Shown: piece by piece, positions 6,499 through 12,978 of the stretch
Layout: each line of letters starts with the position of its first letter
How positions within the stretch are numbered: position 1 is the first letter of the stretch
Assembly (NCBI GenBank): GCA_030655595.1
Contig: JAUSNQ010000021.1
Coordinates: 1-15,482, forward strand
Length of the DNA: 15,482 bases
Direction: 5' to 3'
From: Paludibacter sp.
GTDB taxonomy: Bacteria; Bacteroidota; Bacteroidia; Bacteroidales; Paludibacteraceae
The notes under the pieces: model-generated
Seen by the model: the letters and a program-made list of their open reading frames with translations, nothing else
The model's database searches: none
What the model was told of the DNA's origin: nothing
Translations under genes and position numbers: made by a program

Positions 6499-6529
6499 TT
6501 TGTCAGTTGAAATATTCATAGTAATTTTG
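6499..6529 (+). promoter_or_regulatory. Consensus Bacteroidota promoter of the GntR regulator gene
   Basis: TTTG (6499-6502) and TAATTTTG (6522-6529) are separated by 19 bases, matching the -33/-7 consensus TTTG-N19-TAnnTTTG. The expected transcription start is near 6536, leaving a leader of about 56 bases to the ATG at 6592. The -7 box overlaps an operator-like palindrome (6527-6538). Confidence 0.75.
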
Positions 6530-6538
6530 GTCAACCAA
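6527..6538. promoter_or_regulatory. Operator for the GntR regulator (autoregulatory site)
   Basis: TTGGTCAACCAA fits the palindrome TTGGT-NN-ACCAA; with flanking bases the arms are six long (6526-6539). It has the general form of FadR/PdhR-subfamily operators (TGGT-n-ACCA). It covers the end of the -7 box and the predicted transcription start, so binding should block polymerase. The same 12-mer form recurs twice before susC. Confidence 0.75.
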
Positions 6539-7362: not shown

Positions 7363-7425
7363 CGTTTTAGATTTAACGAAAAAATATGTTTAAGAACATA
7401 AATCAATCAAAAATCGAATTATAAT

Positions 7426-7456
7426 TTTGTAGTTTTAAAAAGTATGCATAATTTTG
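7426..7456 (+). promoter_or_regulatory. Consensus Bacteroidota promoter of the susC operon
   Basis: TTTG (7426-7429), 19 bases, then TAATTTTG (7449-7456): the same spacing and the same -7 sequence as the regulator's promoter. The predicted start lies near 7463, giving a leader of about 70 bases. Two operator palindromes overlap and follow the -7 box. Confidence 0.8.
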
Positions 7457-7467
7457 GTCGACCAAAA
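7452..7467. promoter_or_regulatory. Operator 1 of the susC promoter
   Basis: TTTTGGTCGACCAAAA is a perfect 16-bp palindrome containing TTGGT-CG-ACCAA (7454-7465). It covers the end of the -7 box and the predicted transcription start, so occupancy by the GntR regulator should prevent initiation. Confidence 0.8.
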
Positions 7468-7481
7468 ATTGGTATACCAAT
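7468..7481. promoter_or_regulatory. Operator 2 of the susC promoter
   Basis: ATTGGTATACCAAT is a perfect 14-bp palindrome containing TTGGT-AT-ACCAA (7469-7480). Its centre is exactly 15 bp from that of operator 1, about one and a half helical turns, so two dimers would sit on opposite faces of the DNA. This arrangement may allow tight or cooperative repression of the operon. Confidence 0.78.
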
Positions 7482-7506
7482 ATTGACGTTGTTGAATATT
7501 GAACTA

Positions 7507-7541
7507 TTAAAATGAATTTATTAAACTTTTAAAATGAATTT
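7507..7541 (+). repeat. Direct 13-bp repeat duplicating the susC start region, with a mini-ORF
   Basis: TTAAAATGAATTT occurs at 7507-7519 and again at 7529-7541, where it includes the susC ATG. The first copy opens a six-codon frame, MNLLNF, from 7512 to its TAA at 7530-7532, one base before the susC start codon. Confidence 0.6.
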
Positions 7542-10500
7542 CATGAAAAAAAACGCAAACAAGCCACAATTTATCAGAAATTGGATGTTGGTGCTTGTAG
7601 GAATCTTTGGAAGTTTTGGTGTGTTACATGCTCAAATTAAAGTAAGCGGAACAGTTACCGACACAAACAAAGAGCCTTTGATTGGGGTGAATATCACCGT
7701 TAGTGGCACCAGAACAGGCACGATTACAGATTTTAACGGGACCTACACCATCGAGGTGCCTGAAAGTAAATCTGTTTTAATTTTTTCTTACATCGGTTAT
7801 AAAACCATGTTGAGAGATGCTGGTACAACAGGAGTTATCAATGTTACTTTGGTAGAAGATGCATTGCAAATGGAGGATGTGATTGTTGTAGCTTATGGTA
7901 CTCAAAAGAAGTCGCATTTAACTGGTGCAATATCTTCACTGAAAACAGAAAGATTAGACGAGGTACCTGTTTCGCGTGTTGATCAGGCGTTGCAGGGTAA
8001 ATTAGCAGGTGTGCAAATTCTGAATACCAACCCTGAAGCTGGAGAAGCTCCGCAAATTAGGGTGCGTGGTATGGGTTCAATTAGCGCAGACAATAATCCT
8101 TTGATAGTGGTTGATGGATTTCCTAACATGGATGGATTGTCGATGGTAAGTATGAATGATATTGAATCGATAGAAGTATTGAAAGATGCTGCATCAGCGG
8201 CTTTATATGGTTCGCGTGCAGCCGGCGGGGTTATTCTGGTTACTACAAAGAGTGGTAGCAATATCAAGAAACCAAGATATACATTTAAAATGTATACAGG
8301 TATACGTTCTGCACTCAAATTACCCGAGATTCATACAACAGAATCATATATCGGTATGTTGTATGATGAAGCTGAACTACGTAAACTTGATCCTGCTATC
8401 AATGGAATTGCTACAGAAACTATGGCTTTCAACAGGGCGACTGACCATGAGCGTGCTACCTTGTTGTTGGAGCGTTATCTTGTAGACCAACCGACCGATT
8501 GGTTACAGGAAGGGTTACGTACATTTGGATCGAATAAGAGTTATCAGCTCAGTGCTTCAGGAGGTGACAAAAACATCCGTTACTATGTCTCCGGAAGCTA
8601 TGTCGGTGAAGAAGGCATTATGAAAAACAGTTCATACGATAAATATAATTTCAGAGCAAAAGCAGATATCAAACTGTCGAATAAAGTTACGCTGGGATTT
8701 AACCTGAGCCCAACTTTTACCCGTCAGGAACGTCCTGGAACTGACTTGACCGACTATGTTCGTTTTCCATCCTGGATTCCCATCCGGCACAATGCGGCAA
8801 CAGCTGCTTTGACAGGTAAAGTCGCCGGTGAATATGCGCAACCGGCTGATTTTAACGGAATCTCAATCAGTGGCGAAGGCTTAAACGGTGAAATATGGCA
8901 TCTGGCAGGTGTTAATCCATTCAGTTCAAGTAACAACAACCCGGTATCTATCCGCGAAAGAACCAGCATTTTTAACGATGAATATAAATTGCAGACGAGT
9001 ACTTATCTAACGATTGACTTTACACCCAATCTCCAGTTTAAGACTTCTAATGGTTTTTATTTTGCTTTCAAAGAATATAATAAAAAAGAACAAACCTCGG
9101 CAAATAAACAGGGCAATCCTAATATGCTAACACGCCAGTTGACCATGCGAAGGCATTTACTTAATGAAAACACACTGACTTATAAAAACAATTGGGGGGT
9201 GCACGAGATTGAGGGTCTTATAGGATTTACTGCTGAGAAAGAATTAAATAGTTACAATGCCATTATTGGGACGAATTTTCCTGACGAAAATATTTTATCC
9301 TTTAATATGGCTTCACAGCTGATATTGAACAGTCCAAGTATCTCAGGAACTACTTCATATTACGATTCGAAAGCCCTGGCGTCATTCATAAGCAGGGTGA
9401 ATTATGCTTATATGGGAAAATATCTCTTCTCTGTGAGTATGCGTGCTGATGGTAGTTCATTGTTTGCTTCGGGACGTAAATGGGTTAATTATCCGGCAGG
9501 TTCATTCGGGTGGAGACCGTCAGAAGAAGATTTTATGAAGGATCTGGACTGGTTGTCGAATCTGAAAGCCAGAGTTAGTTATGGTATTAATGGCAATAAT
9601 GCTATACCTCAATATGCCTATATGAACCTCATCAATACCAATAATTATGTACTAGGTGCAGGCACAGGCTCTTTGGTACAAGGTATGGCATCAACCGATG
9701 CAGCACTTGGTAATCCGGACATTACCTGGGAGAGGCTAGGAGAGTTGAACATAGGTCTGGATTTGGGATTTTTTAACAGTAAAGTTAATTTATCGATTGA
9801 ACATTATAGTTCCAACACCATTCAGATGCTGTTGCAACAACCCGCCATGTTTATCACAGGTCATCAAACTTTTTGGAATAACATCGGTTTGGTAAATAAT
9901 AAAGGTTGGGAATTTGAACTGACAACGACCAATATCAATCGCAGAAATTTAACCTGGAAAACTACAGCTAATCTATCTACCAATAAAAATCTATTGTTGG
10001 ATTATGGGGATAAAGATACAGAAGATCATTTCGGTGAAAGAAATGAAGTGTATCGTTCTATCGTTGGTCAGCCTGCCATCCAATTCTATGGGTATAAAAG
10101 CGATGGCATCTGGACAACGTACGAAGAAGTAGCTGCGGCAAAAGCAGTTAAGGATGTTGATGGAAATCCTTTTACCTACACCCGATATGCGCCGACAGTT
10201 GGTGGTCTTAAGGTAGCTAATACCAACAATGACAATCGTATTGATGCCGACGACCGTACAGTCCTTGGTGATCCATTCCCTGATTTCACATGGGGTATTA
10301 CCAATTCCTTCACATGGAAAAACTTTGATTTGAGTTTCTTGTTCCAAGGAGTTCAGGGAATAAAGGTGATCAATGGAAATATTAATTACAACGAACAGTT
10401 GCGTTATAATAAAGCATACACGAATGACCGATATATCAGTCCAATGTTCCCGGGAGACGGTCAAACGGTTTACTCGACAACTACTTCAGGTGGCGACCTG

Positions 10501-10788
10501 ATGCTTACCGATTATGCGATTGAAGATGCTTCTTATGCTGCACTCAGAGACTTTACACTGGGTTACAAACTTTCTGAATCAGTTGTAAAGAAGCTGAAAA
10601 TAAGTAACATAAGGCCTTATTTTTCTGCGCAGAATTTATTGTACTTCATGGCATCCGACTATCGTGGAATCAATCCAGAAGCAAGACGTACTTCAGGTAT
10701 TTATAACAGTCCGCTGATAGAAGGATATCAACGTGGAGCTTTCCCGCTCAATCGTACCTTTACTGTGGGTGTTGATATACTATTCTAA
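7534..10788 (+). CDS. SusC/RagA-family TonB-dependent receptor of the alginate-type PUL
   Basis: Outer-membrane oligosaccharide importer that works with the SusD lipoprotein encoded next. The 1084 residues show a signal peptide ending near LHAQ (31-34), a carboxypeptidase-D-like beta domain (about 36-107), the SusC signature EDVIVVAYGTQKK (114-126), a plug with VRGMGSISADNNPLIVVDG (177-195) and LYGSRAAGGVILVTTKSG, and a long barrel ending VGVDILF with the terminal Phe needed for membrane insertion. Size and domain order are typical. The start at 7534 is one option; ATG at 7543 (MKKNANK) would also give a good signal peptide. It is first in an operon with susD, a small lipoprotein gene and a PL6 lyase, driven by a promoter with two operators. 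Alginate as substrate is inferred from the lyase. Confidence 0.95.
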   Translation: MNFMKKNANKPQFIRNWMLVLVGIFGSFGVLHAQIKVSGTVTDTNKEPLIGVNITVSGTRTGTITDFNGTYTIEVPESKSVLIFSYIGYKTMLRDAGTTGVINVTLVEDALQMEDVIVVAYGTQKKSHLTGAISSLKTERLDEVPVSRVDQALQGKLAGVQILNTNPEAGEAPQIRVRGMGSISADNNPLIVVDGFPNMDGLSMVSMNDIESIEVLKDAASAALYGSRAAGGVILVTTKSGSNIKKPRYTFKMYTGIRSALKLPEIHTTESYIGMLYDEAELRKLDPAINGIATETMAFNRATDHERATLLLERYLVDQPTDWLQEGLRTFGSNKSYQLSASGGDKNIRYYVSGSYVGEEGIMKNSSYDKYNFRAKADIKLSNKVTLGFNLSPTFTRQERPGTDLTDYVRFPSWIPIRHNAATAALTGKVAGEYAQPADFNGISISGEGLNGEIWHLAGVNPFSSSNNNPVSIRERTSIFNDEYKLQTSTYLTIDFTPNLQFKTSNGFYFAFKEYNKKEQTSANKQGNPNMLTRQLTMRRHLLNENTLTYKNNWGVHEIEGLIGFTAEKELNSYNAIIGTNFPDENILSFNMASQLILNSPSISGTTSYYDSKALASFISRVNYAYMGKYLFSVSMRADGSSLFASGRKWVNYPAGSFGWRPSEEDFMKDLDWLSNLKARVSYGINGNNAIPQYAYMNLINTNNYVLGAGTGSLVQGMASTDAALGNPDITWERLGELNIGLDLGFFNSKVNLSIEHYSSNTIQMLLQQPAMFITGHQTFWNNIGLVNNKGWEFELTTTNINRRNLTWKTTANLSTNKNLLLDYGDKDTEDHFGERNEVYRSIVGQPAIQFYGYKSDGIWTTYEEVAAAKAVKDVDGNPFTYTRYAPTVGGLKVANTNNDNRIDADDRTVLGDPFPDFTWGITNSFTWKNFDLSFLFQGVQGIKVINGNINYNEQLRYNKAYTNDRYISPMFPGDGQTVYSTTTSGGDLMLTDYAIEDASYAALRDFTLGYKLSESVVKKLKISNIRPYFSAQNLLYFMASDYRGINPEARRTSGIYNSPLIEGYQRGAFPLNRTFTVGVDILF

Positions 10789-10819
10789 TTTTATTGTTGA
10801 AAATTCAAAAAAAAGAAAA

Positions 10820-12364
10820 ATGAAAAAGATATTATTTATTATCAGCTTGTTCTCGGCGGTGATGTTTTTTACAGCTTGTGAGGATTTCCTGACAGAAAAA
10901 CCCGAATCAGTACTAACTCAAGTTGATTTTTACACCACTCCGATTCGTATCAATCAGGGGGTATTGGGTAGCTATGCCGGCTTGGCTTCTACTTTAAAAG
11001 ACGAGTGGTTGTTTACTGAACTGAGATCTGACAATACCTGTCAGGACAATACCGGTTCCAGTACGACAGCTCGTATCGATCAAACTGATTTGACTTTATT
11101 CAGAACATCTCCCAGTTTACCGATATTGATTGACTATTGGTACAAAGTATTTCAGAATATTTCGAATGTGAATGCAGTGTTGCCATCTGTCAAAGACAAT
11201 GCGTACATCACCATCGAATCACAACGTGCTCAATATGAGGCAGAGTTGTTGTTTATCAGAGCGTTGCATTATTATAATTTGGTTACTTTCTTTGGAGATA
11301 TGTTCAAAGTTACGACTGTGATCGGTCCCAATGAAGCGAAACGCATTCCTCGTTCTTCTGTCAATGAGATTTATGATGAAATTATCATACCTGATTTAAT
11401 CAAAGCTGCCAATCAGGCTCCTTCGACATATCCTAATGCTGAAAAAGGACGCGTAACCAAATGGGCTGCTAAAGGTTTATTAGCTAAAGCCTATATGATG
11501 CGTGGTGGAGCTGCAAATATTGCCTTGGCTAAACCATTGTTGGAGGAAATTATGACATCTTCACCCCATAGTTTGTTGACCGGAGCAGGTGCATTTGCGA
11601 ATATTTTCAGCACAACAAATGAAATGAATAATGAAATCATCTTTGCAGTGCGATATAAAGGTGGAGCGCTTGGTGTTGGATCTCCTTTCTGGAGTTATTT
11701 TGCACCGCTTGGCTCAGGAAATACTTTCCTGAAAATAGGTACACCAATGGGTTATAACGCTCCGACTCTGGAAATTCGCGCATTATTCGATAGTATAGGC
11801 GGTGCTGATCGCAAAGATGCTTCTTATCGTATTTGGAACAGATCTGCAACTTCTCAGTTACCGTATATTTTCAAGTATAACGACCCCGCCATATCTCAAA
11901 CTTTTCAGGCAGAAAACGACTGGATATTGTTACGTCATGCCGATGTTGTTTTGCTTTATGCTGAAGTGTTGGCTCAGGATGGAAATCATGGTGATGCGCA
12001 TACTTATGTAAATCAGGTTCGCAACAGAGCAGGAGCCGGAGCTGCTCCGGTGGGTCCTTATGCCTCAAAAACGGAAGCGCTTGATGGTGTTTACACAGAA
12101 AGAAGGCTGGAATTAGCATTCGAAAATCAACGTTGGTTCGATTTGCTGCGTATGAATAAATCGTACAATGATCCTTTGAAAGCTGTCAACATCATGAAAA
12201 AACATGTGTTTGAAACCGATTGGGTTTTGCTTTATTCTAAATATAACCCAATTCAACCACCTGAAGAACGATTCTTTATCCCCGCTCGTCTGATTCTGCC
12301 TATTCCGCAAACGGAACTGGATACCAACAATGAGCTGGATATTGAACAAAATGAAGATTATTAA
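10820..12364 (+). CDS. SusD/RagB-family glycan-binding lipoprotein
   Basis: Surface lipoprotein that caps the SusC barrel and captures oligosaccharide, 514 residues long. I chose ATG at 10820, preceded by an A-rich stretch, because it yields a standard lipoprotein signal with FFTAC and Cys20; the reading frame is open further upstream but would overlap susC and bury the signal. The family features are clear: NQGVLGSYAGL (45-55), TPR-like helices AELLFIRALHYYNLVTFFGD (141-160) and AAKGLLAKAYM (216-226), and the C-terminal SusD region (about 368-445) with LLRHADVVLLYAEV and ERRLELAFENQRWFDLLRM. It follows susC by 31 bases, the usual obligate pairing. Ligand specificity cannot be read from sequence; alginate oligomers are likely from context. 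Confidence 0.95.
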   Translation: MKKILFIISLFSAVMFFTACEDFLTEKPESVLTQVDFYTTPIRINQGVLGSYAGLASTLKDEWLFTELRSDNTCQDNTGSSTTARIDQTDLTLFRTSPSLPILIDYWYKVFQNISNVNAVLPSVKDNAYITIESQRAQYEAELLFIRALHYYNLVTFFGDMFKVTTVIGPNEAKRIPRSSVNEIYDEIIIPDLIKAANQAPSTYPNAEKGRVTKWAAKGLLAKAYMMRGGAANIALAKPLLEEIMTSSPHSLLTGAGAFANIFSTTNEMNNEIIFAVRYKGGALGVGSPFWSYFAPLGSGNTFLKIGTPMGYNAPTLEIRALFDSIGGADRKDASYRIWNRSATSQLPYIFKYNDPAISQTFQAENDWILLRHADVVLLYAEVLAQDGNHGDAHTYVNQVRNRAGAGAAPVGPYASKTEALDGVYTERRLELAFENQRWFDLLRMNKSYNDPLKAVNIMKKHVFETDWVLLYSKYNPIQPPEERFFIPARLILPIPQTELDTNNELDIEQNEDY

Positions 12365-12384: not shown

Positions 12385-12978
12385 ATGAAAACAAAGAATT
12401 TTATTAAATATCTTCTACTTCTGATGGTTATAAGTGTCTTTGGTGCTTGTACTATGGAAGAGGAGACCGTAATTATTCCAAAAACTCTCGAACAATATAA
12501 ACAGGAATTTCAGGAGTTTGTAACTTCCCAGATAGATTTTGTTGATAATTGTGTCAATGGGTATAACAAAGGTGATTTCCGTTCGACAATCAACTACGGT
12601 CCTTATACCACGAACTACAAAACGAAATTGGTTGCTGCACTGGCAGTGCTTGATAAGGCTGACTTGAAAATTGAAGATATTGCAAAAGCCTATACAACAT
12701 TCGCTGCTGAAGGAAAACTGTATCAAGCTGAGATATTTATTTCAGATCGTCGTCCGCTTCACGAACTAATTGTTGCATGTGATGCGCTCAATACAGCGAC
12801 TCCGGATGGATCTTCTTCCGGTTCAGTTAATCCTGCTGATAGAGTTCCATTTGCTGCGGCAATTGCTGCGGCAAAAGTAAAGCGGACCGCTACGGCCCTA
12901 GTTGAAAGGCAGGTACAAGAAGAAGTAGATAAATTAAATGCGGCAAAACAGGCGTTTGAAAGCGCTATCATTCCATAA
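12385..12978 (+). CDS. Small helical lipoprotein after susD, DUF4972/FIVAR-like
   Basis: Lipoprotein of 197 residues with a signal peptide ending VFGAC (Cys22) and an acidic TMEEE after the cysteine, suggesting surface exposure. The mature part looks all-helical, with two similar stretches: YKTKLVAALAVLDKADL (about 73-89) leading into IAKAYTTF, and PFAAAIAAAKVKRTATALVE (about 154-173) leading into LNAAKQAFESAI. This resembles FIVAR-type three-helix modules, and I tentatively connect it with DUF4972, a Bacteroidota family of unknown function. The gene begins 20 bases after susD and occupies the position where SusE/F-like surface glycan-binding proteins usually sit, so glycan binding or a scaffold role beside SusCD is plausible, though no binding site is visible. 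A hairpin separates it from the lyase gene. Confidence 0.75.
   Translation: MKTKNFIKYLLLLMVISVFGACTMEEETVIIPKTLEQYKQEFQEFVTSQIDFVDNCVNGYNKGDFRSTINYGPYTTNYKTKLVAALAVLDKADLKIEDIAKAYTTFAAEGKLYQAEIFISDRRPLHELIVACDALNTATPDGSSSGSVNPADRVPFAAAIAAAKVKRTATALVERQVQEEVDKLNAAKQAFESAIIP

Follow-up and report, generated by a model that had tools for sequence, protein, structure and literature searches.

The window, a 15,482-nucleotide stretch of Paludibacter sp. DNA, encodes a GntR-family regulator followed by a SusC-like transporter, a SusD-like protein, a small protein and a PL6-type lyase (Table 1). The family names of these products point to an alginate-type polysaccharide as the probable substrate of the operon. 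Relatives hold further PL6, alginate-lyase-domain, MFS and SDR genes. The segment at 7426-7481 is very probably the promoter-operator of this polysaccharide utilization operon, run by the adjacent GntR/FCD repressor.

Table 1. Features of the regulator gene, the susC promoter region and the downstream operon, in window coordinates
Feature	Position	Strand	Description
Regulator-gene promoter	6499..6529	+	TTTG (6499-6502), N19, TAATTTTG (6522-6529), fused to operator
Regulator-gene operator, single	6527..6538	+	TTGGTCAACCAA; perfect core; ends 53 bases before the gene
GntR-family regulator with FCD domain, 237 aa	6592..7305	+	Pfam GntR 7e-16, FCD 5.4e-25
Terminator-like stem-loop	7337..7360	+	stem of 10 pairs plus T run; lies between the regulator gene and the susC promoter
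Crp-like (BT4338-type) palindrome	7385..7400	+	TATGTT-TAAG-AACATA; centre 67 bp before the centre of operator 1
susC promoter, -33 element	7426..7429	+	TTTG, 19 bases upstream of the -7 element
susC promoter, -7 element	7449..7456	+	TAATTTTG
Operator 1	7452..7467	+	TTTTGGTCGACCAAAA; perfect 16-bp palindrome, 16/16 bases pair; centre 7459.5
Operator 2	7468..7481	+	ATTGGTATACCAAT; perfect 14-bp palindrome, 14/14 bases pair; centre 7474.5
SusC-like TonB-dependent transporter, first gene of the operon	7534..10788	+	TIGR04056, 824.7 bits (cut-off 368)
SusD-like protein	10733..12364	+	SusD_RagB 1.3e-29; listed frame, true start probably later
Small protein, presumably same operon	12385..12978	+	no Pfam match
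Probable alginate lyase of PL6 type (Chondroitinase B family), 803 aa	13033..15444	+	PF14592 1e-118

The promoter, its palindromes and the regulator

The region ahead of susC had been described, in a sequence-only reading, as two perfect palindromes with centres 15 bp apart, the first overlapping the -7 element of a promoter of the form TTTG-N19-TAATTTTG. Both statements are exact on re-reading of the window. The palindromes have the core TTGGT-N2-ACCAA in common, and the last five bases of the -7 element fall inside operator 1, whose left arm holds the TTTG of the box. The Bacteroidota promoter consensus, as quoted in PMC4306948, is TTG at -33 and TAnnTTTG at -7, and the promoters of susC and of the regulator gene both match this type in sequence. 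Without mismatch, the core occurs three times in the window, each time between genes. With up to two mismatches it occurs 10 times, as against 10.5 in shuffled sequence, so that the weight of the motif lies in its exact form, its positions and its conservation. The third perfect site, which the sequence-only reading did not list, precedes the regulator gene, as comparable sites do in relatives.

Two further sequence details lie near this promoter. The TTTG of the -33 element also ends a second copy of TAATTTTG (7422-7429), making a second, upstream promoter register possible. Two nearly identical copies of a 22-nt stretch stand immediately ahead of the susC start (7497-7540, 91% identity), and this duplication creates a decoy ATG at 7512, with a frame of six codons, upstream of the listed start.

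The regulator belongs by its domains to the FadR (FCD) subfamily of the GntR family, scoring 58.1 bits with PF00392 (cut-off 27) and 88.7 bits with PF07729 (cut-off 24.3). FadR-subfamily sites are described as A/T-rich palindromes with TKGT and ACMA boxes and 2-3 nt between GT and AC (PMC4494728), and the three perfect sites of the window have this form. The proposal that a protein of this subfamily is encoded next to sites of its own type agrees with both domains and boxes. The nearest named regulators are those of two Paludibacter metagenome-assembled genomes (L001, L002; 89% identity), beside which the window is placed in the tree. In the FCD domain, residues D152, H156, H199 and H221 occupy the positions of D, H, H and H in NanR and CGL2915, where this set has a metal role. 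A structure model (mean pLDDT 75, below 50 for residues 71-88) gave only fold-level matches in Foldseek, NanR being the top one, and yielded no site geometry.

Motif, fusion and spacing among relatives

Public genomes were scanned with a 30-row regulator alignment, and the best 80 of 435 confirmed relatives were used as loci. The core TTGGT-N2-ACCAA occurs 150 times in the window and these relatives (1.40 Mb), compared with 7, 0 and 5 times in three order-3 Markov copies, 0-9 times for nine rearrangements of the arms and 3-10 times for seven other spacers. Pairs 12-20 bp apart number 54 and are absent from the Markov, rearranged-arm and spacer controls. When all 57 successive pairs less than 100 bp apart are considered, 31 stand at 15 bp and 19 at 16 bp, with four at 13, 14 or 17 bp and three at 27-28 bp. 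Grouped into clusters, the 150 sites make 93, of which 85 are intergenic. The remaining eight fall in frames of a crude ORF caller that marks 88% of the sequence as coding, and those in L058, L072, L073 and L077 lie just before the regulator gene.

Fusion to the -7 box follows a consistent pattern. Of 56 multi-site clusters, 49 carry the box on the first palindrome (38 of 45 without near-copies), two carry it on the last, and one carries it reversed on the first. Single-site clusters are fused in 22 of 37 cases. Among 68 fused clusters, with copies removed, 48 have a TTTG 17-20 bases upstream, and none has one at 8-16 or 21-29 bases. This spacing and the bias toward the first palindrome indicate that the fusion is directional and part of a promoter.

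Spacing differs between groups, as assigned by us. It is 14-17 bp and mostly 16 bp in Bacteroidales (7 of 12), mostly 15 bp (23 of 38) and then 16 bp (12) in Sphingobacteriales, and mostly 15 bp (5 of 7) in a Chitinophagaceae/Saprospiraceae group. Arrays of three palindromes at a constant period of 15 or 13 bp, with some copies imperfect, were seen in L070, L067, L151 and L159.

The number of copies also varies with the gene. Locus promoters of Bacteroidales account for 12 strict pairs, and those of L016 and L022 have pairs with one mismatch in the second copy; the genes that follow were called susC by length (1,046-1,101 aa in 12 of 12), with an HMM check on the window and L116. At the regulator gene itself, Bacteroidales have 17 strict sites, all single, whereas in Pedobacter the regulator gene too has mostly paired sites. 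Three kin of the window (L003, L004, L007) have a large plus-strand gene ahead of the regulator gene; its length in L003 and L004 is close to that of the TonB receptor gene found ahead of the regulator gene in the window. Their regulator promoters align with those of the window, L001, L002 and L047, keeping TTTG and TAnnTTTG and lacking the palindrome, a state consistent with gain of an operator on a -7 box that was already there, or with its loss from one. As a separate observation, a pair of genes of similar length, the second a FabH-type condensing enzyme by eye, precedes the regulator gene in L010, L017, L018, L019, L028 and L032, in an order that looks conserved.

A second input probably comes from a Crp-like protein. 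The consensus of the Bacteroides regulator BT4338 is given in an excerpt of PMC3878776 as wwwTATGTTnTAnAACATAwww, and the palindrome at 7385-7400, which had gone unlisted in the sequence-only reading, fits TATGTTnTAnAACATA by hand comparison at 15 of 16 positions, if both n are taken as fits, with one central mismatch. Deletion of such a site abolished BT4338 binding at fusA2, according to the part of PMC6989115 consulted. Within 130 bp upstream of the 93 clusters, strict TGTT-N4-AACA occurs 14 times, always exactly at -67. With one mismatch allowed, a site at -67 accompanies 18 of 31 intergenic Bacteroidales clusters; the strict Bacteroidales tandem clusters have one in 11 of 12, L038 being without. 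Two more strict matches in the window are intragenic. The site at 7385-7400 resembles BT4338 sites in its palindromic form and differs from them in standing at a fixed 67 bp from a substrate-specific operator. It is a probable activator site, and its position suggests that one promoter combines activation under carbon limitation with substrate-specific repression.

Co-occurrence across genomes and a probable KDG regulon

Evidence that the palindromes are operators of the neighbouring GntR protein, as had been proposed, comes from comparison of genomes. Of 12 loci, 11 were followed in whole genomes; all 11 have one to four strict 15-16 bp tandems, and a backward control gave none. In a draw of 395 Bacteroidota genomes seeded with G006, the regulator is present in 13 (E up to 1e-30). 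Strict 15-16 bp tandems occur in three of these 13 and in none of the other 382. A 13-bp form, with C or T starting the second copy, is found in nine of the 395 genomes, its backward control matching two (G097, G150); this form was first read from the regulator genomes' own loci, and its absence elsewhere is the sole fresh result. Taken together, tandems of 13, 15 or 16 bp are present in 11 of the 13 regulator genomes and absent from all 382 others (Fisher 1e-19); without the seed, the regulator genomes with tandems number 10 of 12 (Fisher 3e-18). Both values overstate independence because the drawn genomes are kin. The two regulator genomes without a pair are G044, with two sites 138 bp apart, and G165, with a 13-bp pair carrying one mismatch.

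Discrimination depends on the form of the site. Single fused sites are found in 12 of 13 regulator genomes and 62 of 382 others, and hand counts give 28 fused sites in the former set and 88 in the latter. A scan with bare TTGGTNNACCAA, which had been put forward as the genome-wide test of specificity, failed in that role: it found 8-10 sites per genome against 4-10 in the backward control over four genomes. The fused and tandem forms discriminate regulator genomes, and the bare 12-mer is not specific genome-wide.

The 13-bp form bears on a further proposal, that two dimers lie on opposite faces of the DNA. Spacings of 15-16 bp fit this arrangement. The 13-bp spacing, present in eight of the 13 regulator genomes apart from G006, is about a quarter turn off, and two loci in these genomes add a third copy after another 13 bp, with a single mismatch at one locus and two mismatches at the other. 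Because spacing differs between groups, a strict opposite-face arrangement is not general. From their gene content, our guess is that the eight genomes are flavobacteria. Five genes at their sites were checked with HMMs, giving two PL6 proteins, two with alginate-lyase and heparinase domains and one of SusC type; the rest were assigned by eye.

Many regulator genes lack a strict site nearby. In 34 of 80 regulator rows, the stretch from 500 bp upstream to 900 bp downstream of the gene contains none; among these rows, L029, L033 and L036 have a fused site with one mismatch. This site-less state switches at least 17 times on the tree, or at least seven times if only well-supported branches are counted. 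A search of 20 site-less loci for another shared palindrome near the regulator gene found none common to more than three. Seventeen of the 20 (L018, L028 and L031 were left out) were followed into whole genomes, where no tandem pair was found. A PL6-family gene is absent from 16 of these 17 genomes, the exception being G416; in each of the five other genomes examined, whose locus has tandem sites, there are two or three such genes. The possibility that site-less regulators are paralogues beside a locus-bound copy was rejected, as 21 of 22 genomes have one copy and G421 has two.

The site-less genomes retain fused sites at a different set of genes. Thirteen of the 17 contain such sites, 22 in total, and four contain none; the backward control gave two hits, both in G421. 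A KDG-kinase-like gene follows 13 of the 22 sites and a gene for KduI (5-keto-4-deoxyuronate isomerase) follows eight, the last site lying in or beside a SusD-like frame. Among the five locus-bearing genomes, the kinase site is present in five and the isomerase site in three. HMM comparison of three representatives placed KduI above its cut-off and two kinases below the cut-offs of the KDG-kinase models, and all 29 kinase and isomerase genes of the 17 and five genomes are at least 82.9% identical to these representatives. The 29 sites are all single, the best neighbouring palindrome having at least three mismatches, and Crp-like sequences near them are sporadic and vary in distance. These kdgK and kduI sites were read in the genomes of relatives, and they add a putative regulon that the sequence-only reading did not contain. 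In site-less genomes, then, 21 of the 22 single fused sites stand before genes for KDG-kinase-like proteins or KduI. This makes it probable that the regulator is a repressor of the KDG pathway and that doubled operators brought alginate-type loci into its regulon.

Distal tandem sites in G005, G006 and G007 precede secreted PL6-domain proteins, and that in G004 precedes a SASA-type esterase gene. The G189 pair lies between a SusC-like gene, toward which the -7 box points, and a divergent KDG-type PfkB kinase gene. In G009:C3 the gene behind the distal tandem site is Mal s 1-like, and a uronate role for it is not evident. Separately, G002:C2 has several fused and tandem sites along one cluster of long genes (10000-44500; L124, L125), apparently an expanded regulon.

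Proposed mechanism, alternatives and meaning

Several layers of control may act at this promoter. From the sites, their fusion to the promoter, their co-occurrence with the regulator and the gene sets that follow them, we infer a model of binding, repression and induction. The GntR/FCD protein would bind each TTGGT-N2-ACCAA palindrome as a dimer, much as FadR dimers bind palindromes symmetrically (excerpt of PMC8012715). Since operator 1 overlaps the -7 element, a dimer there would cover that element and shut out RNA polymerase. Since the palindrome is doubled, a further dimer at operator 2, over the start region, should deepen repression. The single palindrome at 6527-6538 would provide negative autoregulation of the regulator gene. 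The derepressing signal probably arises in the cytoplasm from the shared uronate route, as KDG, DEH or an intermediate close to them, given that site-less relatives retain the fused operator almost exclusively before genes for KDG-kinase-like proteins and KduI. Control by carbon limitation is probably added through the Crp-like site 67 bp upstream, acting as an activator site.

It is quite possible, if short of probable, that dimers occupy the regulator's operators singly, without cooperativity, the second copy only raising occupancy. Variation of spacing by group (14-17, 15-16 and 13 bp, with 27-28 bp in three pairs) is what such binding would allow; within each group, however, spacing is narrow, and independent binding would tolerate many distances. 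Adjacent FCD-type dimers can cooperate, because those of NanR do, yet NanR requires a 32-residue N-terminal extension for it (excerpt of PMC8012715), and the alignment leaves about 16 residues ahead of the matched region of the window's regulator, at most half of that extension. Cooperative binding is a conditional part of the repressor model.

Readings that take the palindromes away from a GntR repressor fare worse. The regulator might activate, or work both ways, but overlap of the -7 box in 49 of 56 multi-site clusters is a repressor's position, AusR is described as a repressor (excerpt of PMC8286568), and the Crp-like site is better placed for activation; we consider an activating role very improbable. 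A different factor, such as a LacI-type KdgR or a UxuR analogue, could bind the sites with the GntR gene as a mere neighbour, as glucuronate and mannuronate genes of Bacteroides are predicted to be under LacI-type KdgR, UxaR, UxuR and UxmR (excerpt of PMC3878776). This very improbable reading was rejected, since the sites go with the GntR gene from genome to genome (11 of 13 with it, 0 of 382 without), even where the two lie far apart, and have the form of the FadR subfamily. Perfect inverted repeats near a presumed start site might also act in RNA as 5' leader hairpins. Operator 1, however, extends into the -7 element, so that most of it would not be transcribed, sites of this kind also stand singly at other genes, and a 2-base loop is ill-suited to a hairpin; on these grounds this reading, which we hold to have next to no chance, was rejected as well. 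Repression by the adjacent GntR/FCD protein remains the preferred explanation.

The components of this system are known in kind. The nearest described one is AusR of Zobellia galactanivorans, likewise a GntR-family regulator of alginate genes: passages of PMC8286568 present it as a repressor of most of them and propose release by an oligosaccharide product, and its gene sits in an alginate locus (excerpt of PMC8073546). We know AusR through papers citing Dudek 2020, and its orthology with the window's regulator is presumed; a regulon of kdgK and kduI only was not found described for AusR in those excerpts. UxuR-type operators, also of a uronate pathway, are TKGT/ACMA palindromes with the same 2-nt spacing (PMC4494728). 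Those of the window differ in being doubled and fused to the TAnnTTTG box, and the protein scores 55.6 bits with the UxuR NCBIfam model (cut-off 442) and 51.4 with that of ExuR (cut-off 396). E. coli NanR is an FCD-type GntR repressor that places several dimers on adjacent sites of a (GGTATA)3 operator; it differs in its direct repeats, its extension and its sialic acid target genes (excerpt of PMC8012715), and the window's regulator scores 114.4 bits with the NanR NCBIfam model (cut-off 260). Gut Bacteroides, too, have alginate loci with regulators of FadR type (excerpt of PMC11381880). The operator form, the fusion rule, the division between core and locus and the fixed Crp-like position were not found in the literature searched, which covered AusR through citing papers, and the operator motif may already be in print with AusR.

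A wider reading, tentative and a little short of an even chance, is that these features follow a phylum-wide grammar. An ancestral KDG-pathway repressor with single operators at kdgK and kduI would have gained control of polysaccharide loci as its palindrome grew onto the TTTG of a -7 box already present and was then doubled or tripled; the number of operators would set the depth of repression, and the period of 13, 15 or 16 bp, which differs by group, would reflect co-evolved contacts of neighbouring dimers. If this grammar is true, Bacteroidales would use one copy for the core enzymes and the regulator and two for the costly locus.

The doubled-site layout recurs in relatives that have the regulator and alginate-type genes. 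One promoter leads to a rule, open to testing, about how control over polysaccharide loci arises in Bacteroidota. Regulon members are predicted genome-wide by the site in its fused and doubled form, which the bare motif does not achieve. The differing periods offer a natural operator-spacing series for testing cooperativity in FCD-type GntR repressors. The regulon links alginate-type breakdown to the general KDG pathway, and suggests a common uronate intermediate as the signal.
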